Notes under the pieces: model-generated | What the model saw: the letters and a program-made list of their open reading frames with translations, nothing else | The model's database searches: none | What the model was told of the DNA's origin: nothing | Made by a program: the position numbers and the translations under genes | Shown here: one piece after another, positions 6,980-61,452 of the stretch | Numbering within the stretch: position 1 is the first letter of the stretch | How the letters are laid out: each line of letters starts with the position of its first letter | Origin: Methanoregula sp. SKADARSKE-2 | GTDB taxonomy: Archaea > Halobacteriota > Methanomicrobia > Methanomicrobiales > Methanospirillaceae | Direction: 5' to 3' | NCBI GenBank assembly: GCA_030919125.1 | Contig: CP121470.1 | Coordinates: 434,001-498,000, forward strand | Length of the DNA: 64,000 bases

Positions 6980-7318
6980 TTACAGCAGCTTCGTCTCTTC
7001 CGTTGGTTTTGGGACCTTGACCACGAGCACCCGGAACACACCGGTACTCTCGTTGGTCCACGTGTGCGGGATGCGGGCCGGGCTCTCAACCAGCATGTCT
7101 TTCCCGACTGTTTTCTTCTCGTCACCGATCTCGACAATGCCCGTGCCTTCCAGCACATAGAAGAAAACGTCGACCGGCGTGATATGCTTCTTCAGCGCCT
7201 CACCGGGCTGGAGCGTGATGACAACGGCCATGGCATGCGGCGAATCATAGACCTTTCGGACGTCCACGTGATGCGGGTTCGAGCCGGATACGACTTTTGA
7301 TACATCGGTAATTTTCAT
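6980..7318 (-). CDS. Small cupin protein (cassette copy 1)
   Basis: A 112-residue single-domain cupin. The barrel shows HHVDVRKVYDS, GEALKKHITPVDVFFYVLEG (cupin motif 1, metal-binding histidine and acidic positions partly altered), and PARIPHTW (motif 2 histidine). It is about as long as its paralogue at 29255-29593 and nearly identical in large blocks. Its ATG overlaps the stop of the upstream HTH-like gene by ATGA, so the two are translationally coupled. The family gives no firm substrate; a metal- or ligand-sensing role beside AtwA and Mrp is inference. Confidence 0.85.
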   Translation of the reverse strand: MKITDVSKVVSGSNPHHVDVRKVYDSPHAMAVVITLQPGEALKKHITPVDVFFYVLEGTGIVEIGDEKKTVGKDMLVESPARIPHTWTNESTGVFRVLVVKVPKPTEETKLL

Positions 7319-7726
7319 TTTTCCACCTTCGAATAGATCTCCATCTGGACCGGAAGGAATAAAAAGATATCCAGACCGGCTCGCCCGGACTGGCCGCTCT
7401 TTGCTGTGCATCGCACATGCGACCGCACGTGGTCCATCGTACCCGGGACGGGCACGAAAGCCGATCTTCGTTTGACCAGGTACCGGCGTTTCGGGGGGGG
7501 TCCGATGGCGAAGTGCGTTCGATCCGTTCGATCTTGAGAACGATAAAGGGAAACTACGAAACGGCCCGTATTCCAGCCGGCGCAGGAAGCCCGAGATCGT
7601 GTTGTACTCGTAGCGCGGCAGGCCGAACCGGTCGCAGAGTTCGCGCACGGTAACCCACCGCTCATCGGCGCCGTTCTCCTCCATGTACTGTTCGAGCAGT
7701 GCAGGAATGCCGGAATATTTTCTCAT
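7315..7726 (-). pseudogene. HTH-like small protein, frameshifted (cassette copy 1)
   Basis: The first 58 residues (MRKYSGIPALLEQYMEENG, later WVTVRELCDRFGL and NTISGFLRRL) match the proteins at 10933-11250 and 16290-16718 and the remnant at 28915-29194. The pattern of charged helix, WVTV-strand and a second helix suggests a winged HTH-like fold, but I do not recognise the family. Two single-base losses break the frame: AAA at 7545-7547 (one more base restores FPFIVLKIER) and the G8 tract at 7493-7500 (one more restores PKRRYLVKRR). The restored product is about 137 residues and ends in an ATGA overlap with the cupin. Confidence 0.7.
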
Positions 7727-7777
7727 GCGGTCACGCCATGGTTCTTTTTCGAAATATCCAAACGCAGGCTTACCGGA

Positions 7778-8536
7778 TCAGGATTCGACCTGCTTTACCA
7801 GGTTCTCCATAACATCATTCACCGCTTTCCATGCAGGAGAATCCAGGTGCCGCACGATGAACGCCCTCCCGCTGTCACCGGATTTCACCATCTCCGGATC
7901 AAGGGGGATTGCGCCCAGGAATGGAACGTTAAGATCTTCCGCTGCCTTCCTTCCGCCGCCCTTGCTGAACAGATCGATCTCTTCGTGGCAATGCGGGCAG
8001 ATCAGCCCGCTCATGTTCTCGATGACACCGATGACCGGCAACGCAAGCATTTCGATGAACTTCGCCGCTTTCATCGCGTCCATGACCGCGACATCCTGCG
8101 GGGTCGTTACGATGACTGCTCCCCTGACGTTCGGGGAGAGCTGGGCAATCGAGAGTGCTTCATCCCCGGTGCCGGGCGGGAGGTCGACGACGAGGTAATC
8201 GAGAGGACCCCAGTTCACCTCAGCGAGGAACTGCTGGATCGCGACCATCTTCATCGGCCCGCGCCAGATAACCGGGCTGCTCGTGTCCGGCAGCATGAAC
8301 GCGATCGACATGACCTCAAGATTTCCGGTAACATGAACCGGTTCGAGAGCGTTCGCGAGGACCGCAGGCCGCTGGTCTTCGATGCCCAGCATCTTGGGGA
8401 TGTTGGGGCCGTGGAAGTCAAGGTCGAGCAGGCCGGTTTTTTTCCCGTGATTTGCAAGCGCAAACGCAAGATTCACCGAGACGGTGGACTTGCCGACTCC
8501 GCCTTTCCCGCTCAGGACAAGGATGACGTGCTTCAC
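7778..8536 (-). CDS. Mrp/NBP35-family P-loop ATPase (cassette copy 1)
   Basis: A 252-residue ATPase of the Mrp/NBP35/ApbC family, Fe-S cluster carriers. The deviant Walker A GKGGVGKS is at residues 10-17, [11 protein letters not shown] near 117 is the family hallmark, and CPHC (C180, C183) is the dimer-bridging [4Fe-4S] pair. As read it begins at a GTG with no conserved N-terminus. The upstream 100 bases encode, one frame off, a cysteine-bearing leader (EHCDTC then APKGLP) that joins perfectly if the C4 run at 8553-8556 is C5. Either the N-terminal cluster domain was lost or the sequence lacks a base. It lies between atwA and the HTH-like gene. Confidence 0.9.
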   Translation of the reverse strand: MKHVILVLSGKGGVGKSTVSVNLAFALANHGKKTGLLDLDFHGPNIPKMLGIEDQRPAVLANALEPVHVTGNLEVMSIAFMLPDTSSPVIWRGPMKMVAIQQFLAEVNWGPLDYLVVDLPPGTGDEALSIAQLSPNVRGAVIVTTPQDVAVMDAMKAAKFIEMLALPVIGVIENMSGLICPHCHEEIDLFSKGGGRKAAEDLNVPFLGAIPLDPEMVKSGDSGRAFIVRHLDSPAWKAVNDVMENLVKQVES

Positions 8537-8692
8537 ATCGATCTTTGCTTTCGGGGCAGCCCTTTTGGTGCATTGTTGTTCGGTTGTGCAGGTGGACAGG
8601 TATCGCAGTGTTCGGTCTTCTCTTTATTCGTGGGTAGTGGTGTCAATAGTATCAGCTCGGAAAAAATACTCTGGAATTCATGCAAGAGCTAT

Positions 8693-10288
8693 TCAGCCGC
8701 GCTTCTCTTCCTCGGTAACCTGTGCGAGGATCGATGCTGTGGGCCCGATATCGATGATCCTCCCACCCCGCATCAGGGCAAGCCGGTCGCAGATGTCCCG
8801 GACGAAGTCCATGTCGTGCGAGACAACGATGAACGTCTCGTCCATCTCGTCGCGGGCGTTCAGGATAGAGTGTTTCACATCCTGCTTGGTGATCGGGTCC
8901 ATGGTGCCGGTCGGCTCGTCGAGGATCACGAGGCGCGGCTCCCGTATGAGCACCTGGGCGAGGGCCACCCGGTGGCGCTCGCCGTCCGAGAGCTCCCCGG
9001 GGTAACGGTTCAGGATCCCCCGGGACTTTTCCTCGGTGAACCCGGCCATCCTAAGGGTTATGACAGCTTTTCTTATCGCGAGCTCTTTGGGGAAGTCAAG
9101 CCCGATCGAGTCGGTGAGGTTGTCGATCACGGTGCGGTGGGGGAAGAGATCGTACTCCTGGTGCAGGAGGCCGATGTACTCCTTCGCCCGGCCCCGCTGG
9201 TCGATGCCGGGTTTTGTCATGTCCACCCAGTCGTCGCCGATCAGGACGTTCATCTCGCCGCTCGTGGGCTCGATAATCCCGGAGATGATCTGGGAGAGCG
9301 TGGTCTTTCCCGCCCCGCTCTTCCCGATGATGCCGAAGATCTCTTTCTTTTGGACATCGAAGGTGACCGAGTTCACCGCCCTCACGACACCGCGGTCGAC
9401 CGAGACATACTTCTTGGTCACGTCCCGGGCTGAGAGGATCTTCCCTCCCAGTTCCACCGTGGCCTGCTCCTCGAACTCGTGGTAGTCCTCTGCAAATGCA
9501 CGGATCACGGACTTTGGCGAACCGATGGACGCGATCTCGCCATCCACGAGCAGCAGCGCCCGGTTCGCCATATCCTCGATCACCTGCGAGAAGTGGGAGG
9601 TGACGATCATGCCCATCGTATTTTTCTTCGCAGCTTCGATCAGCATCCCGTGAACCAGCCGGGCGGTCTCGGGGTCGAGGGTTCCGGTCGGTTCATCGGC
9701 AAAGAGCATCGCCGGGTTCTTGGCCAGCTGCCGGGCAAGGACGACCCGCTGCTTCTCGCCGCCCGAGAGGTCGCGGGCGATGTGCATCATCCGGTGGGAG
9801 AGCCGTACCTTGTCGATGAGATCGGCGGCGCGGCTGATGGCGTGTTCCTGCGGGTAGCGGATATCATCGAGCGCGTGCAGCACGTTCTCGATCACCCGAT
9901 TGTCGCCGTAGAGCGCAAACGAGCGCTGGAACATGATCGCGGTCCGGCTCATGACCCGGGACTTCATGCCATCGGTCTTCTTATCCCAGAGGTCGATATC
10001 GACGGCGACCAGCTTTCCCCCGCACTCAGGACATTTCCCGCCGGCCCGGCTCTGGACATCCATGTAGGTGCAGCGATCGCATGCTGCCATGTGATAGATG
10101 ATTGTGCCGTGTGTCGGCGGCTGTTCAACGCCGCGGAGGAGGTGCATGAGCACGCTCTTTCCCGCCCCGCTCCTCCCGATAACACCGATGATCTCTCCCT
10201 CGGGAATCTCGAATGAGATGGTATTCAGGACCCGGGTGTCGTCGAAGTCCATGCAGAGGTCGTGTACGCTGATGAATGGCTTGGTCAT
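8693..10288 (-). CDS. atwA: Methyl-coenzyme M reductase activation component A2
   Basis: Twin-ABC ATPase of about 531 residues matching component A2, the ATP-dependent factor needed for reductive activation of methyl-CoM reductase (Ni(II) to Ni(I) F430). ABC domain 1 has Walker A GRSGAGKS (38-45), a zinc-ribbon insert with CDRC and CPEC (C70, C73, C86, C89), signature LSGGEKQR and FADEPT. Domain 2 has GKSGAGKT, signature LSDGERHR and ILDEPT. No membrane segments. The ATG at 10288 is preferred over 10324, because a TATA-like box (10325-10334) directly abuts the earlier ATG and would place transcription start downstream of it. Confidence 0.93.
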
Positions 10289-10310
10289 TGATTGCTCGCA
10301 GGAGATTATT

Positions 10311-10334
10311 GCGCATATGAGCATAAAGATTTAA
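10311..10334 (-). promoter_or_regulatory. atwA promoter with quasi-palindromic motif
   Basis: On the minus strand a TATA-like TTAAATCTTT (10334-10325) is followed at once by the near-palindrome GCTCATATGCGC (10322-10311). The same 11-mer, in inverse orientation, lies between the TATA box and start of the Cys-rich gene at 11554-11564. Its position at the expected transcription start fits a repressor site; this is inference. Confidence 0.5.
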
Positions 10335-16760: not shown

Positions 16761-17455
16761 CTATGATTCAACCACTTTCACCAGGTTTTCCATCACCGCG
16801 TTCATGGCCTTCCATGAAGAAGTGTCGATATGACGGAGAACATACGGGCGCCCCTCTTCGCCGGCTTTTACCATTGTCGGATCCAGCGGGATGGCGCCAA
16901 GGAATGGAACACCCAGGTCCTTTGCCGCTTTTTCTCCCCCACCCCGGCCAAACAGGTCAATTTTTTCCCCGCAACCGGGGCAGACCATCCCGCTCATGTT
17001 CTCAATGATCCCGATTACGGGCAGATCCAGTTTTTCGATGAACTTTACGGCCTTGATCGCATCGAGCACTGCCACATCCTGCGGGGTAGTCACGATAACT
17101 GCTCCTTTGACATTCGGTGCGATCTGGATGATGGTGAGCGCCTCGTCCCCGGTCCCAGGGGGACGGTCGACGATAAGATAGTCAAGCGATCCCCAGTTCA
17201 CTTCGTTCAGGAACTGCTGGATCGCTGCCATCTTCACAGGTCCGCGCCAGATCACCGGGCTGCTCGTATCCGGCAGCAGGAGCCCCATCGATATGACCGA
17301 CAGGTTCCCCGTGACATGGGCGGGTTCCATGGTCTTTTCGAGAACGGTAAGGCCCTGGCCTTCGATGCCAAGCATCTTGGGGATGCTCAGGCCGTGGATA
17401 TCGAGATCAAGGAGCCCGACATTCCTTCCGTTGGCCGACAGGGCCGTTGCAATCG
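16761..17455 (-). pseudogene. Mrp/NBP35 ATPase, N-terminally truncated (cassette copy 2)
   Basis: About 230 residues matching the Mrp at 7778-8536 from ALSANGRNVGLLDLDIHG to the stop. The CPGC bridging cysteines and PPGTGDE are kept, but the deviant Walker A loop and everything before it are gone, so ATP-dependent function is lost. VVDLPPG has become IVDRPPG. The truncation point abuts a permease remnant on the opposite strand at about 17455, a recombination junction. An open frame continues upstream by chance through permease DNA, which can mislead gene finders into a 387-residue product. Confidence 0.85.
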
Positions 17456-17990
17456 TGGTCACCGGCATCGCTGCCGGGGTTGCGGGACCTGCGATGATCC
17501 TTTCGGTCATCATCGCTGGGATCATTGCTGTCTTCTCGGTAATGAGCGTTGCCGAACTGGGCACCTGCTCCCGGAATTGAGGGTGGAACAGAAACTTATC
17601 TCGCCCTTTGCCGGGTTCATGGCCGGCTGGATCTGGAGCTTTTCCAACATTTTCGTCGGAGCAACGGTCTCGTTCGGTTTCGCCCAGTATTTCGTCCCCA
17701 TCTTCCCGGTCGTGCCGGTAAAGATACTTGCCGTCGTAATCTGCCTTGTTTACCTCGCCATCAATTACATCGGTCTTAAGGACTCGATCCTTTTCAGCGA
17801 TCTTCTGGTGACGGTTAAAGTCCCGATTCTTTTGTTCTTTGTCGGGTTCGGCCTGCGATTTTTCCGTCCGGGAAATTCTTGCTATAACCGGGCTTACGAT
17901 GAAAGAGACCGGCATGTATGGCAAAGGGGTCCGGTTCGGGATCCTGGTGCGGATGGAAAATACCGGTTACACCCGCCCCAAAAACCGCTC
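17450..17990 (+). pseudogene. APC-superfamily amino-acid permease remnant
   Basis: Hydrophobic stretches in two frames match an APC amino-acid permease: GVAGPAMILSVIIAGIIAVF and SVAELG (early helices), then after a frameshift near 17575 FAGFMAGWIWSFSNIFVGAT, AVVICLVYLAINYIGL and VTVKVPILLFFVG. The N-terminal helix and the whole C-terminal half are missing. Both ends are truncated, the left one against mrp copy 2 and the right one near DUF2124. Confidence 0.75.
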
Positions 17991-21968: not shown

Positions 21969-22072
21969 TATCCCTTAATCTCCGGTATAAATCTTATCCC
22001 AGCCTCCATTAAACATCATATACTATTGCGTCCAGTGCCGTGAACACAAAATATTCATGGCCAGGGGGTCAG

Positions 22073-22747
22073 ATGTATCCGGGCATAAAAATGACCGATA
22101 CAACCTACGGTGCAAAACTCCAGCGGGATGGCAGGACCTATGCGATCCAGACCCGGATTCCGGCCGGTGTAGTAACGCCGGAAAATCTCGAAACAATCGC
22201 CCGGGTTGCAAAAGAGTTCCATATCCCGATGATCAAGATCACGTCAGGACAGAGATTCCTGCTTATGGGGGTACAGGAGCAGGACATCGCAGCAGTGCGC
22301 AAAGAACTGGGCGATATCGGCGCTGCATCCATAACGCCCGGCGTGCGGTACGTCCAGTCCTGCCCGGGGATTTCGTTCTGTAAAAATGGTACTCAGGATT
22401 CCCTGAGCCTGGCCCGGGAGATCTCCGATGAGTATGCAGGAAAAGAGTTCCCGGGAAAGATCAAGATCGGTATCTCCGGCTGCCCGCGTTGCTGCGGGGA
22501 GAGCAGGGTCCGTGATGTCGGCATCATGGGTTCTGCAAAAGGGTGGACCATATTCTTCGGGGGGCACAGCGGATTTATCGCCCGGCAGGGAGAACAGGTG
22601 GCGACCGGGCTGAGTTCCGAAGAGACGCGGGATCTTGTCCGGAGACTGATTGGTTATTACAAGACTCATGCGCAGCCGAAAGAGCGGACCTCCCGGTTTC
22701 TGGATCGGGTTGGAACGGCGTGGCTGAAACCCTGCCCATCGGAATAA
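22073..22747 (+). CDS. Small sulfite/nitrite reductase-like protein
   Basis: A 224-residue protein of the siroheme-[4Fe-4S] reductase superfamily, matching the small Dsr-like proteins of methanogens (single ferredoxin-like half plus catalytic domain). The coupled cofactor site is SCPGISFCKNG (C-X5-C) with GCPRCCGES (C-X3-C). An N-terminal ferredoxin-like half reads PAGVVTPENLETIARVAKEF. The reaction of these short forms is not established; sulfite, nitrite or another siroheme substrate is possible. The ATG at 22073 follows an AGGGGGT site. The IS5-type element begins 17 bases after its stop. Confidence 0.9.
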   Translation: MYPGIKMTDTTYGAKLQRDGRTYAIQTRIPAGVVTPENLETIARVAKEFHIPMIKITSGQRFLLMGVQEQDIAAVRKELGDIGAASITPGVRYVQSCPGISFCKNGTQDSLSLAREISDEYAGKEFPGKIKIGISGCPRCCGESRVRDVGIMGSAKGWTIFFGGHSGFIARQGEQVATGLSSEETRDLVRRLIGYYKTHAQPKERTSRFLDRVGTAWLKPCPSE

Positions 22748-22760
22748 ATCCTTTTTGTAC

Positions 22761-22764
22761 CATA
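22761..22764. repeat. Target-site duplication CATA
   Basis: CATA lies immediately left of the IS end (22761-22764) and again immediately right of it (23936-23939), the expected 4-bp duplication for an IS5-type insertion. Confidence 0.6.
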
Positions 22765-23935
22765 GAGAATTCTGAAAACCTCCCTGTAGCCGGTAGTACT
22801 TTATCTTAGTACGATCAATGACGAGTATGGAAAATCTGGTTGATTTTGCGTTCGAGAAGCGGTATGAGAGTATCAAACGACTCGGGGATCGGCTTGACGG
22901 ATTTTCGACATTAATCAATTGGGAGAGGTTTCTGACGGTAGTGGGAGGTCTGTATCGAAACCAGACCGAAGAGGGCGGTCGACCGAATATTGATATCGTT
23001 CTCATGGTTAAGATGCTGGTACTCCAGTCGATGTACAGCCTGTCCGATCCCGAACTTGAGCGTCAGGCCAATGATCGCATATCATTTATGAAATTCCTCG
23101 GGTATCCTAACAAGGTCCCGGATCAGACCACCGTCTGGTATTTCCGGGAGCGGTTGGCAAAGACCGGAAAGGATAAGGCTATTTGGGATGAGCTCCAGCG
23201 ACAACTCGATGCACAATGTCTGAAAATCAAAAAAGGCACCATTCAGGATGCGACTTTCATCACCTCAGAGCCCGGTCATGCTTCAACGAATACACCCCGG
23301 GGTGATGCTGCAAAAACTCGAAGAAGCCGGGATGGAACATGGGCGATAAAGGGCAAGAAATCTTATTTTGGATACAAACTCCATACCAAAGAGGATTGTG
23401 ACTTCGGACTGATCCGGGCTCTCGAGGTTACAACTGCCTCAACCCACGATTCGCAAATCGACCTGTCGAACGAAGGAGAGGTGATCTACCGTGACCGAGG
23501 ATATTTCGGTACCAAAACAAAAGGTTTCAACACCACCATGCAACGGGGTGTTCGTGGGCATCCGATCGGTATCCGCGATGTTCTCAAAAACGCTCGAATC
23601 TCTCGAATCCTATCTCCCGGGGAACGCCCATATGCCATCATCAAGAATGTGTTCCATTCTGCTCATACCAAAGTCACAACCGTTCTCAGGGTGCATACCA
23701 AAATGCTGTTCTCGGCCTTCTGCTTTAACCGGTTTCAACTCGCAACCCTCAAAAAACAAGGGGTTCTTGAGCGGATGCTCTCGACAAAAAACTGAAATGT
23801 GGCCTGAAAATGCAAGAACCGGATACATAGACCCACTCACATTGGTGCTATTTTGTAAAATTGGGGCAAGCCGAACGCTCGGGAAGCACCCCTTTCCGGT
23901 ACGATCGTAAAATAAATGGGTTATTCGTTATCCTC
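22765..23935 (+). mobile_element. IS5-family insertion sequence, intact copy 1
   Basis: A 1171-bp element, left end GAGAATTCTGAAAA and right end TTCGTTATCCTC, forming imperfect inverted repeats (about 12 of 18). It is flanked by CATA duplications. One transposase gene fills it. A near-identical copy lies inverted at 60243-61415 and an internally deleted one at 54793-55223. Confidence 0.9.
22818..23795 (+). CDS. IS5-family transposase
   Basis: An intact 325-residue DDE transposase. It has an N-terminal DUF772-like part (LMVKMLVLQSMYSLSDPELE, FMKFLGYPNKVPDQTTVWYF), first catalytic Asp in GTIQDATFI, second in VIYRDRGYFG and the Glu in SPGERPYAIIKNVFHSAH. It differs from the copy at 60383-61360 at only one residue noticed (AFEKR versus ALEKR), so transposition was recent. 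Confidence 0.95.
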   Translation: MTSMENLVDFAFEKRYESIKRLGDRLDGFSTLINWERFLTVVGGLYRNQTEEGGRPNIDIVLMVKMLVLQSMYSLSDPELERQANDRISFMKFLGYPNKVPDQTTVWYFRERLAKTGKDKAIWDELQRQLDAQCLKIKKGTIQDATFITSEPGHASTNTPRGDAAKTRRSRDGTWAIKGKKSYFGYKLHTKEDCDFGLIRALEVTTASTHDSQIDLSNEGEVIYRDRGYFGTKTKGFNTTMQRGVRGHPIGIRDVLKNARISRILSPGERPYAIIKNVFHSAHTKVTTVLRVHTKMLFSAFCFNRFQLATLKKQGVLERMLSTKN

Positions 23936-24028
23936 CATAATTTTTGTACGAGAATTGAATGACAGATACTTATGAACATGAATCCCTGATTCATTAATCA
24001 GGAGATATAGACACGTCACGTGATACTT

Positions 24029-27705: not shown

Positions 27706-28017
27706 AGGAGAGCGGCACCGGGTCGCTCTTGCCCAGGTCCTGATAAAGGAGCCCCGGCTCGTCATTCTCGACGAGCCGACCGGGACCATGGACCCGATCA
27801 CAAAGCAGGACGTGAAGCACTCGATCCTCAACGCCCGGGACGAGATGGATGAGACGTTCATCATCGTCTCCCATGACATGGATTTTGTCCGGGATGTCTG
27901 CGACCGGGTCGCCCTGATGCGGGGCGGAAAGATGATCGATATCGGCCCGACCGCTGCGGTCCTTGCAGAGGTTACCGATGACGAGAGAGAGAGGACTGAT
28001 TTCGCGGAGAGGAAAAA
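27706..28017 (+). pseudogene. AtwA C-terminal fragment (cassette copy 3)
   Basis: About 104 residues match the end of AtwA from the second ABC signature on: [40 protein letters not shown], then [20 protein letters not shown] and the tail. Both Walker A loops and the entire first ABC domain are absent. The original stop is lost; the frame runs into the mrp copy that follows. Residues are almost all shared with the intact gene at 8693-10288. Confidence 0.85.
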
Positions 28018-28867
28018 CCTGAATGCAACGAGAACTGTACCAGCTGCGGATCTGCACAGAACAGCGCACCGAAGGGACTGCCTCCCAAGGCAAAGATCGA
28101 TGTCAAGCACGTCATCCTTGTACTCAGCGGAAAATGCGGGGTGGGAAGATCCACCGTCTCTGTGAACCTGGCATCAGCCCTTGCCGGCCAGGGCCGGAGG
28201 GTAGGGCTCCTTGGAGCCTGACTTCCCTGGACCCAACATCCCCAAGATGCTGGGAATCGAGGAGCGGGGGCCGGCCGTTCTTGCAAACGCGATTGAGCCG
28301 GTCCGTGTTACCGGCAACCTCTCGGTCATCTCGATGGCGTTCCTGCTCCCGGATATCAGCACACCAGTCGTCTGGCGCGGCCCGATGAAAATGACTGCGA
28401 TCCACCAGTTCCTTGTTAAAGGTTGCCTGGGGGGCGCTCGATTACCTTGTTGTGGATCTCCCGCCAGGCACCGGGGACGAGGCGCTCTCGATTGTCCAGC
28501 TCGCACTGAACGTGCGGGGGGCGGTTATTGGGACAAAACCCCAGGATGTTGCCGTGATGGATGCGATCAAGGCTCCAAAATTTATCGAAAAACTGGAACT
28601 GCCGGTTCTCGGTGTCATCGAGAACATGAGCGGGATGATCTGTCCGCACTGTGGCAAGAGCGTAAGTCTTTTTGGCGAAGGGGCGGAAAGAGGGTGGCTG
28701 AGGATCTTGGCGTACCCTATCTTGGTGCGATTCCTCTCGACCCGGAGAGGGTCTGGGCCGGGGATGAGGGTTGGCCCTATCTCCTCCGTCACGCAGACTC
28801 CCTAACATGGAGAGCGGTGGATGCGGTTATGGGGCGCCTTGTCTCAGAGATTGAGACAGAAGCGTAG
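28006..28867 (+). pseudogene. Mrp/NBP35 ATPase, multiply frameshifted (cassette copy 3)
   Basis: The whole gene is present in pieces: a cysteine leader [15 protein letters not shown], then [20 protein letters not shown] with GVGRS in place of the KS of Walker A, a stop after GLLGA at 28219; GPNIPKMLGIEERGP in a second frame; [19 protein letters not shown] to CPHC in a third; and [19 protein letters not shown] to the stop in the second frame again. Three or more frameshifts and the damaged P-loop make it inactive. It preserves the N-terminal CX3CX2C motif that copy 1 has out of frame. Confidence 0.87.
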
Positions 28868-28914
28868 CCACGAACAGGATCAACGACAAGGACAAGCTTC
28901 TCCGGGGGGCATAC

Positions 28915-29194
28915 GTGAGAAAATATCCGGATATGCCGGAACTGCTGGAGCAGTTCACGGATGAGCAGGATGCAGACGAGCGGGGGGTGACGGTTAAGGA
29001 GGTCCGCGAACGGTTTGCCTTGACGCAAGCACCAGGCCAATACAATCCCGGCCTTCCTCCGGCGGCCTGAATTCGGGGCCTTCCGTGGATAACCGTTTGG
29101 GGTCCTCCGGATTGAACGCACCTCCCCATCGGAACCCCTGAAAAGCCGGTACCTGGTCAGACGAAAGAACTGCAGACCCGCAGAACAACGATAG
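28915..29194 (+). pseudogene. HTH-like small protein, broken (cassette copy 3)
   Basis: GTG-initiated VRKYPDMPELLEQFTDEQ, then GVTVKEVRERFALTQ in one frame; after a shift near 29030 QANTIPAFLRRPEFGAFRG, a TAA where the family has Phe, then VLRIERTSPSEPLKSRYLVR and a stop. All landmarks of the family are present, so the identity is sure, but one frameshift and one nonsense codon inactivate it. Confidence 0.8.
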
Positions 29195-29254
29195 GATAAT
29201 CACCGGGTCCAGCCTGACCCACTAGTATCGCGGAAGCAATGCAATGGGGGGAAA

Positions 29255-29593
29255 ATGAAGATCACCGATGTTTCAAAAGTTGTCTCAGGGCCAAACCCGC
29301 ACCACGTGGATGCACGCAAGATCTATGATTCGCCCCATGCGATGGCGGTAGTGATCACCCTGAATGCGGGAGAGTCGCTCAAAAAACACCTCACGCCTAT
29401 CGATGTCTTCTTCTATGTTCTGGAAGGGACCGGGGTTGTCACGATAGGGACTGAGAGCCAGACGGTGGGGAAGGATATGCTGGTCGAGAGCCCGGCAAAG
29501 ATCCTCCACACGTGGAAGAATGAGGGGGATTCTGTTTTCCGGGTCCTTGTCGTGAAAGTTCCAAAACCCACAGAAAAGACGAGGCTGCTCTGA
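29255..29593 (+). CDS. Small cupin protein (cassette copy 3)
   Basis: An intact 112-residue cupin, paralogue of 6980-7318: MKITDVSKVVSGPNPHHVDA, GESLKKHLTPIDVFFYVLEG, SPAKILHTWKNEGDSVFRVL and KVPKPTEKTRLL. It is the only undamaged member of cassette copy 3. It is preceded by a GGGGGG stretch five bases from the ATG that can serve as ribosome binding site. Selection on it alone would imply a role independent of Mrp. Confidence 0.87.
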   Translation: MKITDVSKVVSGPNPHHVDARKIYDSPHAMAVVITLNAGESLKKHLTPIDVFFYVLEGTGVVTIGTESQTVGKDMLVESPAKILHTWKNEGDSVFRVLVVKVPKPTEKTRLL

Positions 29594-30134: not shown

Positions 30135-32110
30135 ATGAATGACCATAACCAGAATATGCTCCTCGACCAGCAGCCTCTTGGAACAATAACATTCGCAGAG
30201 AACCCGGAGCCGCGATGCCCCTGCTTATTATTGCTCGATACCTCCGGATCGATGGCAGGGCAGGCCATCTCCGCGTGGCCCACCGATCTCCTCCGGATAA
30301 AACCGGACGGTCCGGTCGTTGGCTTCCTGATGCCGCGGATTGCGGACTGCGAACCGATCCACAAGGCGTACGGGCCCACGCACCGGAAGGAGACGTTCCC
30401 CCACGCCGACTGACGGTTCCTCATCCGGATCGCAAAAAATCTCGCCGCCACATTCTATGTCATCCACAAGTTCGGGTACGTGATAGGGGACGTGAACGAG
30501 GGCAATATTCTCGTGGACGACAAGGCCTGCGTCCGGCTGATCGACTGCGACTCGTTCCAGGTACGGGCGGCGGACCAGCTCTACCGCTGCGAAGTCGGGG
30601 TCGCCCAGTTCACCCCCCCGAGATCTCGAAATCAAAAAATTTCCGGATGGAACGGACAGCAAACCACGACAACTTCGGGCTTGCGATCCTGAATTTCCAG
30701 CTCCTCTTTCTCGGGAGACACCCGTACTCGGGGGTCTACTCGGGAGCAGAGGAGATGCCGATCGAACGGGCGATCACAGAGTTCCGGTTTGCGTACAGCA
30801 AACAGGCTCCTACAAAATCGATCTCCCCCCCGCCGAACTCAGTCGGGCTTGAGGTTGTCCCGGGATACGTGGCCGATCTCTTTGAGCGGGCGTTCTCTGA
30901 AAGGGGAACATCGCCCACGGGACGTCCGACCACCAGGGACTGGTGGGATGGACTCGAAGCCTTGGAAAAAAATGCGCCCGTGCAGTGCGGACTCCGTCCA
31001 CACCTTCTACTCAGGCCTTGCTGCCTGCCCATGGTGCAAACTCGAAGAGGTCTCAGGAATTTTGTTGTTCCTCAGCCGGGACCGGATATCCAGGATCGAT
31101 ATCCTCCGGGAATGGCAGAAGGTGGACGCGATCAGACCCCCGGGCCCGGTCCCTTCGCTTGGCCCCGCGAACTTTCCAGGCCAGCCAAGACCACTCTCCC
31201 CAGCGATCGAACAGTCGCTCGGGTTTGCGAAGATCCGCCAGATCGCCGGGCTTGTCGTTGTCGCCGGATGCGCGGTCATGGCGGCGATGGGAACGATCCC
31301 CGAGAACGATTACCCGGCCCTCATCGTCACGGCCATTGTTGTCGCCATACTGTTCCTCTATCTCGGCTAGGCAACCGGAGAGAAGCAGCGGAGGAGACAG
31401 AACCTTGAGAATGCCCGGTACATGTGGGATCTCTGGAACAGGAAATGGGTGAGTGAGGCGGGCGACGGGGCGTTTCTTAACCAGATGAACCATCTCCGGG
31501 AACTCCGGCGAAAATACGAGAGCATAGACCGGGGATACCGGGCCGGGCTCCTCACCCTTGAAAGCTCGGGAAGAGGGAGGGTGGGTGGGAGCTGCAGCAG
31601 TTTCTTGCCCGCTGCAGCATCGAGAACTGCCCGATTCCCCGGCTTGCCCGGCTCAGAACGATCCTCAGGTCATGGGGCATCTGCACCGCGGCGGATGTAA
31701 ATCCGAAAAACCTGATGAGCGTTCCCCAGCTTGACAACACCCTGGCAAACGAGATTCTCACCTGGAGGGAGAGGATGGAGAAGAATTTCCTGTTCGATGC
31801 AACCAGAGGGATCCAAAGGTCCGATCTCAAGACTCTTATCCAGCGGTTCCAGCCGCAGATGAGACCGGTGGAGCGGGAGATCAAGAGCGGGATCGTAAGA
31901 CTCCAGTGGATAGAGGAGGATATCCGGAAGAAACGGATAGGTCTCCGGCCGGCGGTTGAGAAACGAGCCCGCGAACTCGCGCAGGCCAAAGCCGACTTTG
32001 AGGTCTTCAGCAGTACGCCGGAGGAGGCGATCCGGCGGGGTCTCGATCAGATTATGCATCCGCGGGGATCCGTACGGCAAATCCATTTTTGCCTGAGAGA
32101 CAGACATTAG
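30135..32110 (+). pseudogene. VWA-kinase (TerY/YegI-type) fusion remnant
   Basis: Starts as a VWA protein (RCPCLLLLDTSGSM, the MIDAS motif), which at about 30265 passes directly into a kinase-like protein: GFLMPRIADCEPIHKAYGP, FGYVIGDVNEGNILVDD (catalytic loop with D and N), VRLIDCDSFQV (DFG-like), LLFLGRHPYSG, two membrane segments (GLVVVAGCAVMAAMG, ALIVTAIVVAILFLYL) and an HhH-like C-terminus (VNPKNLMSVPQLDNTLANEI). This matches the VWA, PP2C, kinase triad (YegLKI/TerY-P). The PP2C gene and kinase N-lobe are deleted. Trp to TGA at 30411, shifts near 30620, 30945 and 31570 and a TAG near 31368 complete the inactivation. Confidence 0.78.
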
Positions 32111-32143
32111 TAATGACAACACTATTTCACTAGAGTGGTTGGG

Positions 32144-33166
32144 ATGGCAGGAAGAAGAGCAGCCGGATCCAGGCCGGGTCCAAAAAAAGAGAGTTCTTCT
32201 CCAGGATGGGTGATCCGGAAACCTTCCGGTAAGACCAAACGGGAGAGACGGGAGCAAGATGATGGGGAAGCCGAAAACAGAGAGCCGGAGAGCTCCAGCA
32301 GGCGATCCTCATGGAGAAAGAAAGAACCTCCCGGGGAGGAACGGCGATCCCCTCCGGGACAAAAATCCGGGGATGGGCCGAAGATCCGGCCGGAGCCAAA
32401 GTCCCGGAGGCCGGAGCAGCAGTTCCAGCAGAACAAGCGACCACGTTCCGGAGAGAATTCCGGGGTCCCTGCAGAGGATCTCCGGCAGGTTCTGCCAAAG
32501 GCAAAGCCGGTCGACAGCCCTCCCCTTACCAGCCGGCAACGGATGGCGCAGGAGTTTGATGAGGGGCGACCGATGGCAAGGACCGGACGGTCGCTGGAAA
32601 GACCTGAAGGGCTGATCCGGCAGGAGAAGGGATCCCGGTCGGCGACGGCCCGGCAACCCGGCGACCGCCGACAACCGGCCCGACCCCGGCCTGCACCCGG
32701 GCGATATGAAAACAGGTCTGCATCCGGAAGATCGGACCGCCCGCTCGCGGAATTCAAGGAGTTTGTACCCGAACACCGTACCCGGCAGCTGGGAACTGAG
32801 CCTGAAGGGCCGGGGCGCCAGAGTCCGCAGTCACGGCCGGCCCCAAGAGCCGGAGATGTACGGCCAGAGAGGGGGAGATCGCGGGATTTACGGATACACA
32901 AAGAAGGGGCCGGCCCAGTCACACGGATGCAACCCGGCGGGAAGCCTCAGGAAGCACCCGGTGAAAAACAGAGGTTCCCTTCCCGAAGAACTACGAGACC
33001 AAAATCGAAGAGACCAGCAGGGCTGCCCCTCCTGAAACATGAAGACAACCGTGCACAAAAACGCAGGGAGCGGGATCTGCAAACGATGCAGGATGCCAAA
33101 ACGGGGGGGAAGGCAGCCCGCCCGGCCAGGAAATGGGGTGTGTCGGAGCGGGGCCGGAAGAACTGA
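32144..33166 (+). CDS. Possible basic disordered protein, Arg/Pro/Ser-rich
   Basis: A long open frame (about 340 codons) of extreme composition, almost only Arg, Pro, Gly, Ser, Glu, Gln and Lys, without predicted secondary structure. It follows the kinase remnant closely. No domain is recognised. Purine-rich, GC-rich DNA easily yields such frames by chance, and overlapping frames on both strands are also open, so coding status is doubtful. If real it would be a disordered nucleic-acid-binding protein. Confidence 0.3.
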   Translation: MAGRRAAGSRPGPKKESSSPGWVIRKPSGKTKRERREQDDGEAENREPESSSRRSSWRKKEPPGEERRSPPGQKSGDGPKIRPEPKSRRPEQQFQQNKRPRSGENSGVPAEDLRQVLPKAKPVDSPPLTSRQRMAQEFDEGRPMARTGRSLERPEGLIRQEKGSRSATARQPGDRRQPARPRPAPGRYENRSASGRSDRPLAEFKEFVPEHRTRQLGTEPEGPGRQSPQSRPAPRAGDVRPERGRSRDLRIHKEGAGPVTRMQPGGKPQEAPGEKQRFPSRRTTRPKSKRPAGLPLLKHEDNRAQKRRERDLQTMQDAKTGGKAARPARKWGVSERGRKN

Positions 33167-34570: not shown

Positions 34571-34791
34571 TACGTCCTCCACGGATCCGGCGACCAAAAA
34601 AAATTTACAAAAACCCATGCAGGAGATGCATGGAGACAAAATAAACGCATTCTTTTTGGTTTTTTCGGAGGTTTTTCCCGAAAATCAAGGAGAGAATGTA
34701 ACGAATTATAAAGACGGGGATACAATTCTTACTATTCCCTGTGGATCCAAAAGGGTCCGTTACTTCTGAAAAATTCCGGAGAGGCATACCC

Positions 34792-36840
34792 ATGATCGCA
34801 ACGTACATCCTTGACATCATCATCGTTCTTGCCCTTGCGATTCTCGTGATTACCCTCGGTACCCGGCTCAAAATTCCCGGGGTTGTCGGGTTCCTCCTGA
34901 CCGGGGTCCTGGTGGGGCCATACGGTCTCGGCCTTGTCAGGGACGCCGATATGGTTGAAGTGCTCGCAGAGATAGGGATCATCTTCCTCCTCTTCACCAT
35001 CGGGATGCAGTTCTCGTTCAAAACCCTGCTCGAGATGAAGAAGATCGTCATCGTTGCCGGGACCCTCCAGGTCGCGCTCACGATCCTTGCAGTATACGCG
35101 ATCATGTACTTCTTCGGGACACCGGCAGGGAGCGCCCTCCTCTTTGGCTTTTTGATCTGCCACAGCAGCACGACCATAACCCTGAAAATTTTCCAGGATC
35201 GGGCTGAGGTCAACACCCCCTATGCCCGGTCAACCCTGGGGATCTCGCTGTACCAGGACATCATGACCGTGCCTATGCTCATTGCCATCCCGATCCTTGC
35301 CGGCCACGAAGCCGACATCACCGCGGCGATGCTGAACCTCGGGCTCACACTTCTCGTGCTCGTCTCGATTGTTCTTGCGGTCGCAATCTGGGTCCTCCCC
35401 CGGATCATGGACAAGATCGCTGGTGTCCGGTCTTCGGAAATTTTCCTCCTCTCCATCGTCCTGATCTGCTTTGTCATCACCTTCATCTCCGCAAAACTCG
35501 GCCTCTCCCTCGCGCTCGGTGCGTTCCTGGCCGGGCTCACGCTCTCGGAGTCCGCGTACTTCCACCAGGCATTTGCAAGCATCATCCCCTTCCGGGACAT
35601 ATTCACGAGTTTCTTTTTCATCTCGATCGGGATGCTCCTCAACATCTGGTTCGTCCTCGAAAATCCGGTCATCATCATCGCACTTGTGATCGGACTCCTC
35701 ATCCTGAAGACCGTGATCGCTGCCGGGAGCACGCTTGCGATCGGCCAGTCGCTCCGGACCTCCGTACTTGCCGGCTTTGCGCTCTGCAACATCGGGGAGT
35801 TCGCCTTCGTCCTCTCGGGTCCCGCGCAGGAGTACGGGGTCTTGAGCAAGACGAACAACCAGTTCTTTCTTGCAGTCGCCGTCATCACCATGGCCCTGAC
35901 ACCGTTCATCATCAGCGCCGGCCCGGGCGTCGCTGACCGGGTCTGCCGGCTCCCGTTCCCGGACCGGATGAAAGCCGGGTGCATTCCCCCGGAGAGGGAG
36001 AAAAACGGGAAGCCCCCGATTACCGGCCACGTGATCGTTATCGGATACGGCCTCAACGGCAGGCACCTCGCAACGGTGGCGAAGATCGGGAACGTACCCT
36101 ATGTTGTTATCGACCTGAACCCGGAGACGGTTGAAGAGGAGCAGAAGAGAGGCGAACCGATCTTTTTCGGAGATGCAACGAATGAGTCCATCCTCTCCCA
36201 TGCCGGGATAGAGGAGGCACGGGTCCTGGTCATCGCCATCAACGATGCGCTCTCCACCCGGGCCATTACCCGTATCGCCCGGCCAATGAACCCGAACCTG
36301 TACATCATCGCAAGAACCCAGTTCCTCCCCGAGGTGAAGATGCTCCAGGGCCTCGGCGCGAACGAAGTTATCCCGGAGGAGTTTGAGACTTCGGTCGAGA
36401 TCTTCTCACGGGTCCTGAAAAAATATCTGGTACCGAAAGGAACGGTTGAGCAATTTGTCCACGAGATCCGCGCCGACTCCTACCAGATGCTCAGGAACCC
36501 GGCCGAATTCTCGGCCGACCTTACCGATCTCCGGTTAACGATCCCCAACACTGAGATCGCCGCGCTCAAAGTTCTTCCCGGTGCAGAGGTTGCGGGCATG
36601 GATCTTGCAGGGATAGAGGTCCGGAAAAAGTACTGCGTCTCCATCCTTGCGATCCGCAGGGCCGGGGAGATCATCGCCAATCCTGCAGGAGAGATGGATC
36701 TCAGAGCCGGCGACGAAGCAATTGTTATCGGGGCGCCGGGCGATGTGGCCCGCCTCTCCCTCCACTTCCATCCGGAGAGTCCGGCCGGGTCCGGATCATC
36801 CGCGGCCTCCGGGCCGGGGAAAACCGGTAACGAAGAATGA
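34792..36840 (+). CDS. CPA2 cation/proton antiporter with RCK domains
   Basis: A 682-residue KefB-type antiporter. Residues 1-380 form about 12-13 membrane helices with FLLTGVLVGPYGLGLV and the exchange-site region FLAGLTLSESAYFHQAFASI. A TrkA-N (RCK) domain follows with nucleotide motif VIGYGLNGRHLATVAK, then a TrkA-C domain ending in a GDEAIVIGAPGDVARL strand pair. It likely exchanges K+ or Na+ for protons under nucleotide control. The ATG at 34792 is preceded by GGAGAGG. It converges on a paralogue with only 140 bases between. Confidence 0.93.
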   Translation: MIATYILDIIIVLALAILVITLGTRLKIPGVVGFLLTGVLVGPYGLGLVRDADMVEVLAEIGIIFLLFTIGMQFSFKTLLEMKKIVIVAGTLQVALTILAVYAIMYFFGTPAGSALLFGFLICHSSTTITLKIFQDRAEVNTPYARSTLGISLYQDIMTVPMLIAIPILAGHEADITAAMLNLGLTLLVLVSIVLAVAIWVLPRIMDKIAGVRSSEIFLLSIVLICFVITFISAKLGLSLALGAFLAGLTLSESAYFHQAFASIIPFRDIFTSFFFISIGMLLNIWFVLENPVIIIALVIGLLILKTVIAAGSTLAIGQSLRTSVLAGFALCNIGEFAFVLSGPAQEYGVLSKTNNQFFLAVAVITMALTPFIISAGPGVADRVCRLPFPDRMKAGCIPPEREKNGKPPITGHVIVIGYGLNGRHLATVAKIGNVPYVVIDLNPETVEEEQKRGEPIFFGDATNESILSHAGIEEARVLVIAINDALSTRAITRIARPMNPNLYIIARTQFLPEVKMLQGLGANEVIPEEFETSVEIFSRVLKKYLVPKGTVEQFVHEIRADSYQMLRNPAEFSADLTDLRLTIPNTEIAALKVLPGAEVAGMDLAGIEVRKKYCVSILAIRRAGEIIANPAGEMDLRAGDEAIVIGAPGDVARLSLHFHPESPAGSGSSAASGPGKTGNEE

Positions 36841-36980: not shown

Positions 36981-38990
36981 TCAGGACCCCTCCGGCCCCG
37001 CAAACAGGTCGACTGCGTTGGTGATATCTTCCGGCGTCCCGTAGACGATTGCAATATCTCCCGCTTCAAGGGACGACTCGCTGCCGGGACCGGTCAGCAT
37101 CTCCTCGCCTCGCCGGATCGCCAGCACGAGAATGTTGTACCGTTTCCGGAGGTTGAACCTGCCGAGTGTCTGCCCTGCCAGCGCAGAGCCAGGTGCCACC
37201 GTAAACGCGGTGATAGTGATGTTGGGGATATTCCGGACAAGGTCAGGCAGCGTCCCCCCGGGGGCGCTCCGGCTCCGGAGCATCCGGTACCCGTTCGCAC
37301 GGACATCGGTGATAAATTTCCCGATCTGGTCGTGCGGTACAAAAAATTTGTTGAGCACGACCGTGAAGATCTCAACCGAGGTCTCGAACTCCTCGGCAAC
37401 AACCTCATCCGCACCCAGGGCGTGCAGGGCTTCAACCTCGCTCACGTACCGGGTACGCACAATGACAGAGAGGGCCGCGTTCAGGTTTCGGCAGAGGCTC
37501 GTGATCTTCCGGGTGGCCACGGGATCGTTGATCGCAATAACCGCGATTCGGGCATCCCGGATGCCGGCATGGCGGAGAACTCCCTCCCCCGTTGCATCCC
37601 CAAAGATAACCAATCCCCCGTTCTTCCGGGCCTCCGTGACAAGGTCAGGGTTGAGCTCGATAATGGTATATTCGATTCCGGCCTGCCGGGCCGTACGGGC
37701 AAGGTTGCGGCCGGTGACGCCGTACCCGATGATGACAAGGTGATCACCCCGAGTTCCGGGGGCGTTCTCCGTCTCGATACCGCAGGTGCCTTTCGCAAAC
37801 CGGGAAAGGGCCGGAACCCGGCAAAGTTTTCCGGCTAACGGCTGGCAGATTCCCATGACAAACGGCGTAGCCGCCATGGTGATGAGGGCGACGATGAGAA
37901 ACGTCTGGTATGCAGAAAACTGCAGGATGCCCACCGTGTACCCGCTCTGGGCAAGAATAAACGAGAACTCCCCGACCTGTGCGAGCGCAAGGCCGCTCAT
38001 TGCTGCAGTCCGGAGCGGATATCCGAGTGCGAGAGGTGCAACCGTCGCGAGCACGGCCTTTGCAACGATTGCTAGGATGATGAGGAAGAGGACGAACCCG
38101 ATGTTGTCGATCAGGAACCGGACATCGACGAGCATCCCGACCGAGATAAAGAAGAAACTGGTAAAGATATCACGGAAGGGAAGCACGATGCTTGCGGCCT
38201 GGTGGCTGTACTCTGAGCCCGAGATGATCAGCCCGGCAAGGAGTGCACCGATCGCGATCGAGATGCCGGTGTAGGAGACCAGCAAGGCTACGCCAAAGCA
38301 GGTGAGAATAACCACGAGCAGGAAGAGTTCCTGGTTCCGGGTTCTGGCGATCTCGTACATGACCCGGGGGATGATCCATTTTGCTGCTGCGATGAGGACG
38401 AGGATGATCAGGAGGTCCTGCGTGAGGAGGAGGAGAAGGGCGTCCCCCGGGAGAAACGGGGTCGGATCAAAGAGAGGGAGGCTCGCGAGGAAGGGTACAA
38501 CCATCATCATCGGGATTGCGACGAGGTCCTGGAAGATCAGGATACCCAGAGCTATGCTCCCGTGCGGAGAGTCCATCTCGCCATTCTGGTGGAGAATCTT
38601 GAGCACGATCGCGGTGCTCGATAACGAGAAGAGAAAACCCATCAGGATCGCTTCGTTCATCGGGCGGCCCAGCAGGAATGCAAGCCCGCAGAAGAAGACG
38701 AACGAGAGACCCACCTGGAGAGCTCCTCCTGCAACCGCAATGAGCCGGATCTTCCAGAGATCCTTGAACGAGAACTCAAGTCCGATGGTAAAGAGGAGCA
38801 GGATGATCCCGATCTCCGCAAGGTTCGCAACCTCCTGCCCCCCGATGACACTGAGCCCGTACGGCCCGACGATAACGCCGGTCAGGATGAAGGCAACGAG
38901 CGGGGGGACCTTGATCTTGTTGAAGACCATGCCTACGCCGAGGGCAATGGCAAACACAATCAGGATGTCGGTGAGCAGGTCAAGAACCAT
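36981..38990 (-). CDS. CPA2 cation/proton antiporter with RCK domains, paralogue
   Basis: A 669-residue protein with the same architecture as its convergent neighbour: membrane part (FILTGVIVGPYGLSVIGGQE, GALLAGLIISGSEYSHQAAS), TrkA-N with IIGYGVTGRNLARTARQ and a TrkA-C domain ending AGDIAIVYGTPEDI. Identity between the two is moderate, so this is an old duplication. A TATA-like CAAATTTATCC lies about 40 bases before the ATG. Confidence 0.93.
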   Translation of the reverse strand: MVLDLLTDILIVFAIALGVGMVFNKIKVPPLVAFILTGVIVGPYGLSVIGGQEVANLAEIGIILLLFTIGLEFSFKDLWKIRLIAVAGGALQVGLSFVFFCGLAFLLGRPMNEAILMGFLFSLSSTAIVLKILHQNGEMDSPHGSIALGILIFQDLVAIPMMMVVPFLASLPLFDPTPFLPGDALLLLLTQDLLIILVLIAAAKWIIPRVMYEIARTRNQELFLLVVILTCFGVALLVSYTGISIAIGALLAGLIISGSEYSHQAASIVLPFRDIFTSFFFISVGMLVDVRFLIDNIGFVLFLIILAIVAKAVLATVAPLALGYPLRTAAMSGLALAQVGEFSFILAQSGYTVGILQFSAYQTFLIVALITMAATPFVMGICQPLAGKLCRVPALSRFAKGTCGIETENAPGTRGDHLVIIGYGVTGRNLARTARQAGIEYTIIELNPDLVTEARKNGGLVIFGDATGEGVLRHAGIRDARIAVIAINDPVATRKITSLCRNLNAALSVIVRTRYVSEVEALHALGADEVVAEEFETSVEIFTVVLNKFFVPHDQIGKFITDVRANGYRMLRSRSAPGGTLPDLVRNIPNITITAFTVAPGSALAGQTLGRFNLRKRYNILVLAIRRGEEMLTGPGSESSLEAGDIAIVYGTPEDITNAVDLFAGPEGS

Positions 38991-54751: not shown

Positions 54752-54792
54752 TTGATGCCTACACTCCTTTAGAGAAGGAGAGTTTTACCAGA

Positions 54793-55223
54793 GAGAATTC
54801 TGAAAAATTCCCCCTGTAGCCGGTAGTACTTTATCTTAGTACGATGCATCCGATCGGTATCCGCGATGTTCTCAAAAACGCTCGAATCTCTCGAATCCTA
54901 TCTCCCGGGGAACGCCCATATGCCGTCATCAAGAATGTGTTCCATTCTGCTCATACCAGAGTCACAACCGTTCTCAGGGTGTATACCAAAATGCTGTTCT
55001 CGGCCTTCTGCTTTAACCGGTTTCAACTAGCAACCCTCAAAAAACAAGGGGTTCTTGAGCGGATGCTCTCGACAAAAAACTGAAATGTGGCCTGAAAATG
55101 CAAGAACCGGATACATAGACCCACTCACATTGGTGCTATTTTGTAAAATTGGGGCAAGCCGAACGCTCGGGAAGCACCCCTTTCCGGTACGATCGTAAAA
55201 TAAATGGGTTATTCGTTATCCTC
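54793..55223 (+). mobile_element. Internally deleted IS5-type element, MITE-like
   Basis: Both ends match the 1171-bp element (left GAGAATTCTGAAAA, right TTCGTTATCCTC), but 743 bases equivalent to 22816-23558 are missing; the left leader joins directly to the transposase C-terminal part. The junction makes an ATG that opens a 79-residue frame (54844-55083) equal to the transposase C-terminus. It lacks two of three catalytic residues. No target duplication is seen. Confidence 0.88.
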
Positions 55224-60036: not shown

Positions 60037-60242
60037 ATGCAGACAAAAATCCTCCTCGATGAGGAGCAGATGCCAAAAAAATGGTATAATATCCAGCGGA
60101 CCTGCCATCCCCGCTTGATCCGCCGCTTCATCCGCAGACGAAGAAACCGATCGGCCCGGAGGATCTCTCCGCAATTTTCCCGATGGAAATCATCCGGCAG
60201 GAAGCCACAAGACCAATACCTCGATCCCCCAGGCCTATTACA
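60037..60242 (+). pseudogene. Tryptophan synthase beta (TrpB2) N-terminal fragment
   Basis: [20 protein letters not shown] in one frame, then, one base off, [20 protein letters not shown] and [20 protein letters not shown]: the N-terminus of a TrpB2-type tryptophan synthase beta chain (WYN, DLP and HPQT motifs). Another shift follows at about 60218, and the IS5-type element begins at 60243. The PLP-binding body of the enzyme is absent from the window. Confidence 0.75.
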
Positions 60243-61415
60243 GAGGATAACGAATAACCCATTTATTTTACGATCGTACCGGAAAGGGGTGCTTCCCGAG
60301 CGTTCGGTTTGCCCCAATTTTACAAAATAGCACCAATGTGAGTGGGTCTATGTATCCGGTTCTTGCATTTTCAGGCCACATTTCAGTTTTTTGTCGAGAG
60401 CATCCGCTCAAGAACTCCTTGTTTTTTGAGGGTTGCGAGTTGAAACCGGTTAAAGCAGAAGGCCGAGAACAGCATTTTGGTATGCACCCTGAGAACGGTT
60501 GTGACTTTGGTATGAGCAGAATGGAACACATTCTTGATGATGGCATATGGGCGTTCCCCGGGAGATAGGATTCGAGAGATTCGAGCGTTTTTGAGAACAT
60601 CGCGGATACCGATCGGATGCCCACGAACACCCCGTTGCATGGTGGTGTTGAAACCTTTTGTTTTGGTACCGAAATATCCTCGGTCACGGTAGATCACCTC
60701 TCCTTCGTTCGACAGGTCGATTTGCGAATCGTGGGTTGAGGCAGTTGTAACCTCGAGAGCCCGGATCAGTCCGAAGTCACAATCCTCTTTGGTATGGAGT
60801 TTGTATCCAAAATAAGATTTCTTGCCCTTTATCGCCCATGTTCCATCCCGGCTTCTTCGAGTTTTTGCAGCATCACCCCGGGGTGTATTCGTTGAAGCAT
60901 GACCGGGCTCTGAAGTGATGAAAGTCGCATCCTGAATGGTGCCTTTTTTGATTTTCAGACATTGTGCATCGAGTTGTCGCTGGAGCTCATCCCAAATAGC
61001 CTTATCCTTTCCGGTCTTTGCCAACCGCTCCCGGAAATACCAGACGGTGGTCTGATCCGGGACCTTGTTAGGATACCCGAGGAATTTCATAAATGATATG
61101 CGATCATTGGCCTGACGCTCAAGTTCGGGATCGGACAGGCTGTACATCGACTGGAGTACCAGCATCTTAACCATGAGAACGATATCAATATTCGGTCGAC
61201 CGCCCTCTTCGGTCTGGTTTCGATACAGACCTCCCACTACCGTCAGAAACCTCTCCCAATTGATTAATGTCGAAAATCCATCAAGCCGATCCCCGAGTCG
61301 TTTGATACTCTCATACCGCTTCTCGAGCGCAAAATCAACCAGATTTTCCATACTCGTCATTGATCGTACTAAGATAAAGTACTACCGGCTACAGGGGGAA
61401 TTTTTCAGAATTCTC
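60243..61415 (-). mobile_element. IS5-family insertion sequence, intact copy 2
   Basis: A 1173-bp inverted copy of 22765-23935, with the same ends (GAGGATAACG at left, CAGAATTCTC at right) and an intact transposase. The flanks, TACA and TCAT, do not repeat, and unrelated DNA lies on the two sides, so a rearrangement followed insertion. Confidence 0.92.
60383..61360 (-). CDS. IS5-family transposase
   Basis: 325 residues, near-identical to 22818-23795; DDE residues in GTIQDATFI, VIYRDRGYFG and SPGERPYAI are all kept. It should be active and able to mobilise the deleted copy at 54793-55223. Confidence 0.95.
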   Translation of the reverse strand: MTSMENLVDFALEKRYESIKRLGDRLDGFSTLINWERFLTVVGGLYRNQTEEGGRPNIDIVLMVKMLVLQSMYSLSDPELERQANDRISFMKFLGYPNKVPDQTTVWYFRERLAKTGKDKAIWDELQRQLDAQCLKIKKGTIQDATFITSEPGHASTNTPRGDAAKTRRSRDGTWAIKGKKSYFGYKLHTKEDCDFGLIRALEVTTASTHDSQIDLSNEGEVIYRDRGYFGTKTKGFNTTMQRGVRGHPIGIRDVLKNARISRILSPGERPYAIIKNVFHSAHTKVTTVLRVHTKMLFSAFCFNRFQLATLKKQGVLERMLSTKN

Positions 61416-61452
61416 TCATGTTTAAATATCTATTTATAATTTGCCTGTTCGC

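Follow-up and report, generated by a model that had tools for sequence, protein, structure and literature searches.

The window analysed here, a stretch of 64,000 nucleotides from Methanoregula sp. SKADARSKE-2, carries at positions 30135-32110 the start of a TerY/YegL-type VWA gene (about 45 codons) joined in frame to codon ~72 of a YegI-type kinase gene. The frame opening at 30135 reads MNDHNQNMLLDQQPLGTITFAENPEPRCPCLLLLDTSGSMAGQ-AISAWPTDLLR... and ends at a TGA codon, with the kinase segment AISAWPTDLLRIKPDG... following directly after the VWA-like MNDHNQNMLLDQQPLGTITFAENPEPRCPCLLLLDTSGSMAGQ and continuing up to that codon, and the downstream parts of the kinase are spread over other, changing frames. 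The features recognized in this region are collected in Table 1.

When the pieces were compared with Pfam, each separately, solely weak kinase-like matches under the cut-off were obtained, so that the relatives were needed for identification. A 237-residue query taken from the kinase remnant showed up to 76% identity to relatives, with E values down to 1.6e-126, far beyond chance. The original prediction had described a kinase with two membrane helices and an HhH tail. Both helices are seen in the kinase remnant when the sequence is read by eye, and the HhH-like nature of the tail rests on its alignment to E. coli YegI, in which HHH_5 scores E = 0.00093 and 20.1 bits (under the Pfam cut-off of 27); the Methanoregula kinase tail, however, had no match in Pfam, and an HhH was not called in it or in the window pieces. 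Just 3' of the remnant, at 32135-33166, a basic, low-complexity open frame of 343 aa has been observed which may not be a gene; it is unmatched both in Pfam and in the 38 other genomes of the genus.

Table 1. Positions of the remnant pieces, the deletion junction and the smaller lesions in the window
Feature	Position	Strand	Evidence
VWA (YegL/TerY-like) gene remnant, ~45 first codons, with DTSGS of the MIDAS motif	30135..30269	+	frame; blastn to VWA gene start in 16/20 loci; relatives' sequence at the break
Deletion junction CATC; 1,523-1,542 bp absent vs 19 relatives	30266..30269	+	blastn and alignment to relatives
YegI-type kinase gene remnant, ~codon 72 of 672 (L031 numbering) to lost-stop site	30267..32080	+	matches to relatives
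Nonsense codon TGA	30411-30413	+	TGG in 8/9 near relatives, TAC in L038
-1 frameshift within a run of C	30617	+	ungapped in 9/9 relatives
-2 frameshift within a run of A	30969	+	ungapped in 9/9 relatives
In-frame indel, +6	31299		comparison with 9 near relatives
Nonsense codon TAG, between membrane helices and cytoplasmic tail	31368-31370	+	frame; comparison with near relatives
+8 frameshift insertion in GGGTGGGTGGG-like sequence	31575-31582	+	missing from 9/9 relatives
In-frame indel, -3	31645		comparison with 9 near relatives
Stop lost, replaced by CAA; last frame continues to a stop at 32108-32110	32078-32080	+	comparison with near relatives

The intact triad in Methanoregula

In relatives with an intact triad, the gene for a VWA protein is followed by one for a PP2C-type phosphatase and then by one for a predicted membrane-anchored Ser/Thr kinase. 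This arrangement was found in 19 of the 20 genus loci fetched, the twentieth (L035) starting inside the PP2C gene at a contig end. The intact triads that had been anticipated in related methanogens are thus present, and alignment to them has located the deletion in the window copy. The genes of one intact triad, L031, encode a VWA protein of 227 aa, a PP2C of 254 aa and a kinase of 672 aa, which share 63% identity over 208 aa with E. coli YegL, 32% over 252 aa with PphC/YegK and 35% over 646 aa with YegI. The VWA protein of an intact relative is matched by PF00092 (E = 1.8e-10), and the phosphatase lying between VWA and kinase is matched by PF13672 (E = 2.4e-45). The kinase, with membrane helices recognized by eye, carries a C...H...CxxC motif whose residues C311, H317, C326 and C329 are invariant in 4 aligned rows. 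No match to PDB sequences was obtained with the L031 kinase and VWA protein at E <= 0.001, and NCBIfam gave weak matches only, far under the cut-offs.

With the 237-residue kinase query, matches at E <= 0.001 were obtained in 36 of a set of 60 genomes that includes SKADARSKE-2, and the window DNA matched 26 of the 38 other genus genomes, two of which (G025 and G032) had the VWA part only among the matches listed. Five of the 22 other genus genomes of at least 90% completeness (G001, G018, G022, G026 and G060) showed no match to the remnant, and in these the unit is maybe absent or diverged. Within the limited flanks of 84 kinase loci, all three matches were present in 57, PP2C and kinase in 4 and the kinase only in 23. 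A VWA and a kinase without PP2C occurred in none of the 84, so that the naturally fused homologues named in the original prediction as the contrary finding were not encountered. Neighbouring genes around the Methanoregula loci are common within subgroups only, among the neighbours listed. A search of titles and abstract starts within the open-licence literature found no paper on this triad in methanogens.

Deletion and further lesions

By blastn, the VWA piece of the remnant is matched in its relatives up to positions 30259-30273, while the kinase piece is matched in 20 of 20 relative loci from positions 30262-30345 onwards, with the two sets of matches overlapping at 30262-30273 in several loci. 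As shown by alignment, a single deletion of about 1.5 kb has taken most of the VWA gene and the entire phosphatase gene, together with the beginning of the kinase, where ATP is bound. In L031 numbering, the lost parts comprise the VWA gene past codon ~45 (about 80% of the gene), the whole PP2C gene and kinase codons 1 to ~71, the last including the glycine loop (G24-G29) and the ATP-site lysine K44 of VAKIY, a residue invariant in 4 aligned rows. It had been proposed that a VWA MIDAS segment runs straight into a YegI-like kinase and that the phosphatase gene and the kinase N-lobe are deleted. The first is borne out by the in-frame join in the frame from 30135, both sides of which are matched by the relatives, and the second by the one deletion of ~1.53 kb against intact relatives, which also removed the ~80% of the VWA gene left unstated in that proposal.

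The deletion join preserves the reading frame. At the joined codon, a common run of 4 bp is seen in 5 of 19 relatives, of 3 bp in 2 and of at most 2 bp in 12, and thus the short flanking repeats that had been suggested are represented weakly. A long direct repeat flanking the deletion can be dismissed, as none of the 19 relatives shows a run of more than 4 bp there. Deletion mediated by an IS was considered as well, and the one repeated element examined has no copy at the junction, the nearest found lying at 22764-23941. When the window DNA was compared with 38 other genus genomes, none of the matches listed crossed the junction, which lies at query positions 132-135; these matches end by position 139 or start at position 128 or later.

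Beside the deletion, alignment of 9 near relatives revealed five disabling lesions, two nonsense codons and three frameshifts, in agreement with the five or so originally predicted. A lost stop is present in addition to these five frame-breaking lesions. DNA identity to the relatives amounts to 73-85% for the VWA piece and 67-73% for the kinase remnant (blastn). At columns invariant in nine relatives, changes found only in the window copy number 37 of 354, 25 of 420 and 16 of 92 at codon positions 1, 2 and 3, respectively. Positions 1 and 2 account for a share of 0.79 of the changes in the remnant versus 0.45-0.79 in the nine relatives, a value equal to that of some intact ones. Identity and codon-position bias fit a long functional history followed by recent loss, without proving neutrality; a retained codon-position bias would be expected if the loss was recent.

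Probable loss of the triad and competing explanations

With these parts gone and its frame broken, the window copy is not a complete triad but a remnant, and no working member of this kind of system. The region 30135-32110 is very probably a pseudogene derived from a YegL-PphC-YegI (TerY-P-like) signalling triad, and probably a recent one of a known kind, the outcome of ordinary gene loss. Searches of the SKADARSKE-2 genome with PF00092 (VWA) and PF13672 (PP2C_2) gave no match at E <= 0.001, and the sole match to the L031 kinase at E <= 10 was the remnant itself. Since no intact copy turned up in these searches at any other place of the genome sequence, the unit has probably been lost as a whole in the SKADARSKE-2 lineage.

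It is very unlikely that the remnant reflects an assembly or sequencing artefact, with a misassembled deletion, frameshifts that are read errors and a triad that is intact in the organism. The -1 and -2 frameshifts are situated in runs of C and A, so that read error could account for both, but the remaining lesions are hard to explain in this way: two nonsense codons, an 8-base insertion, a lost stop and a 1.5-kb deletion all fall within one gene cluster. Among homologous gene places taken from the window and eight 20-kb stretches of the same genome, 19 of 23 were intact, two were broken (the remnant locus being one of them) and two partial, which makes a general sequence error unlikely. The control sets also contained broken places (2 of 21, 5 of 14 and 3 of 23), some of which are probably shadow frames, and for this reason only the 19 of 23 intact places of SKADARSKE-2 were used. 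The adjacent frames, 699 and 669 aa long, are likewise open.

The fact that the join is in frame, that the VWA piece retains FAENPEPRCPCLLLLDTSGSMAGQ, identical to L031, and that the C-terminal frame 31715-32110 cleared the coding-score filter with a score at the low end of the range (0.13, filter 0.12) could indicate that a shortened product with a new role is still made, either a 92-codon VWA-kinase fusion or a C-terminal tail from 31715. This is nevertheless extremely improbable, given that little of the VWA fold and neither the ATP site nor the catalytic loop is left in the 92-codon frame, that none of the 84 kinase loci combines VWA and kinase without PP2C, and that the join is absent from the matches listed in genus genomes. 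A natural and functional VWA-kinase fusion family, in which the frame breaks would be secondary, can be given hardly any credence: in each of the 19 complete relative loci the two genes are separate and PP2C lies between them, and a fused protein would be devoid of the kinase glycine loop and lysine, even though the reading frame is kept across the join.

Related systems, origin and genome setting

The three parts of the intact archaeal triad recur in E. coli, in identical order, as yegL - pphC (yegK) - yegI, whereas the window copy is broken. In strain K-12, pphC and yegI are separated by yegJ, which is encoded on the opposite strand and absent from the intact archaeal loci. YegI is reported to be a membrane-bound Ser/Thr kinase that phosphorylates itself and is dephosphorylated by PphC (PMC13232886). 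Judged by sequence, the archaeal triad is a homologue of YegL-YegK-YegI, and by homology the two may have a common mode of action. By extension from E. coli, the kinase would phosphorylate itself and other targets, the phosphatase would reverse this phosphorylation, and the VWA protein would bind metal or partners via its MIDAS site.

The TerY-P triad has been presented as a VWA, a PP2C and a Ser/Thr kinase with a C-terminal cysteine motif, proposed to act as a metal-sensing phosphorylation switch, and its OB-fold versions are reported to have been shown to act against phage (PMC11090510). The same parts, with the cysteine motif, are also found in the Methanoregula triad, the loci of which, in contrast to TerY-P, have no neighbour gene common to all among the neighbours listed. 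When compared to PADLOC defence models, the VWA and PP2C proteins were unmatched at E <= 0.01 and the kinase gave weak matches (the best being PD-T4-6 at 3.1e-7, with STK_OB at 0.0011). A stress or defence role for the triad is a prediction based on the literature.

Triads also occur in other Methanomicrobiales, where VWA, PP2C and kinase were found together in three of the four first loci from G036, G041, G046 and G056, and PP2C and kinase were seen in the fourth, L025, before locus extension. Their VWA proteins are 48-49% identical to that of Methanoregula, below the 53-63% of the bacterial YegL-type proteins (L086-L097). A VWA query in a 294-genome sample of the phylum gave 13 matches at E <= 1e-20, four of them from the genus (79-84%) and nine from others (40-49%). 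In both the VWA tree (35 rows) and the kinase-domain tree (34 rows), the 13 Methanoregula rows form a single branch within YegI-type bacteria, while the other Methanomicrobiales, represented by six VWA and four kinase rows, are placed elsewhere. The branches separating the two archaeal groups have values of 100/99 and 99/99, under a midpoint root and with a warning of long branches that meet. Across loci L031-L050, L072-L097 and L152-L155, this grouping with bacterial YegLKI, away from the other Methanomicrobiales triads, suggests horizontal transfer into the genus, and acquisition of the triad by Methanoregula from bacteria is the simplest reading of the sequences, though not proven. The intact YegL-PphC-YegI homologue of many Methanoregula, nearer to the bacterial unit than to the other Methanomicrobiales triads, is more useful than the collapse itself, as it serves as an archaeal comparison for a kinase system with an unsettled physiological role in E. 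coli; SKADARSKE-2 in turn constitutes a natural lineage from which the triad has been lost.

The SKADARSKE-2 genome measures 1.95 Mb, small for a genus in which the 22 other members listed with at least 90% completeness span 1.9-3.3 Mb. An IS-like element has 43 matches in this genome, of which 21 cover almost the whole element at 99-100% identity; this points to a recent expansion, while the other genus genomes have 0-10 matches among those listed, all at 78% identity or less except one short one. In the window, copies are located at 22764-23941, 54791-55223 and 60237-61416, the first with a 325-aa frame (22818-23795) which we take to be the transposase. A nitrite/sulphite reductase-like frame recognized by eye at 22040-22747 stops just before this copy, perhaps cut by the element.

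Mean coding cover amounts to 0.64 in SKADARSKE-2 (8 stretches) versus 0.62 and 0.71 in two relatives (6 stretches each), with 0.46 in the window, and the share in frames of at least 300 aa to 0.47 versus 0.58 and 0.56, with 0.31 in the window. Neither coding density nor gene intactness supports heavy decay across the genome. Symbionts of anaerobic ciliates related to Methanoregula have been reported (PMC12662959, PMC8852324). A broader scenario, in which a shrinking, IS-rich Methanoregula lineage, perhaps host-restricted like those associated with ciliates, recently shed a bacterial-type membrane phosphorylation unit that its genus took from bacteria, is speculative and rather unlikely.

Additional aspects of the window have been noted. 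Positions 6984-8983 and 27707-29589 constitute an inverted segmental duplication. Genes for a cupin, an Mrp/NUBPL-type ATPase and an ABC protein lie at 6984-10324, and a second copy at 27.6-29.6 kb has the ABC gene as a short remnant and the ATPase split; a third copy of the Mrp/NUBPL-type ATPase is found at 16761-17924. Two intact, convergent Na+/H+ exchanger-TrkA paralogues, with a mutual identity of 42-43%, occupy 34741-36840 and 36981-38990.
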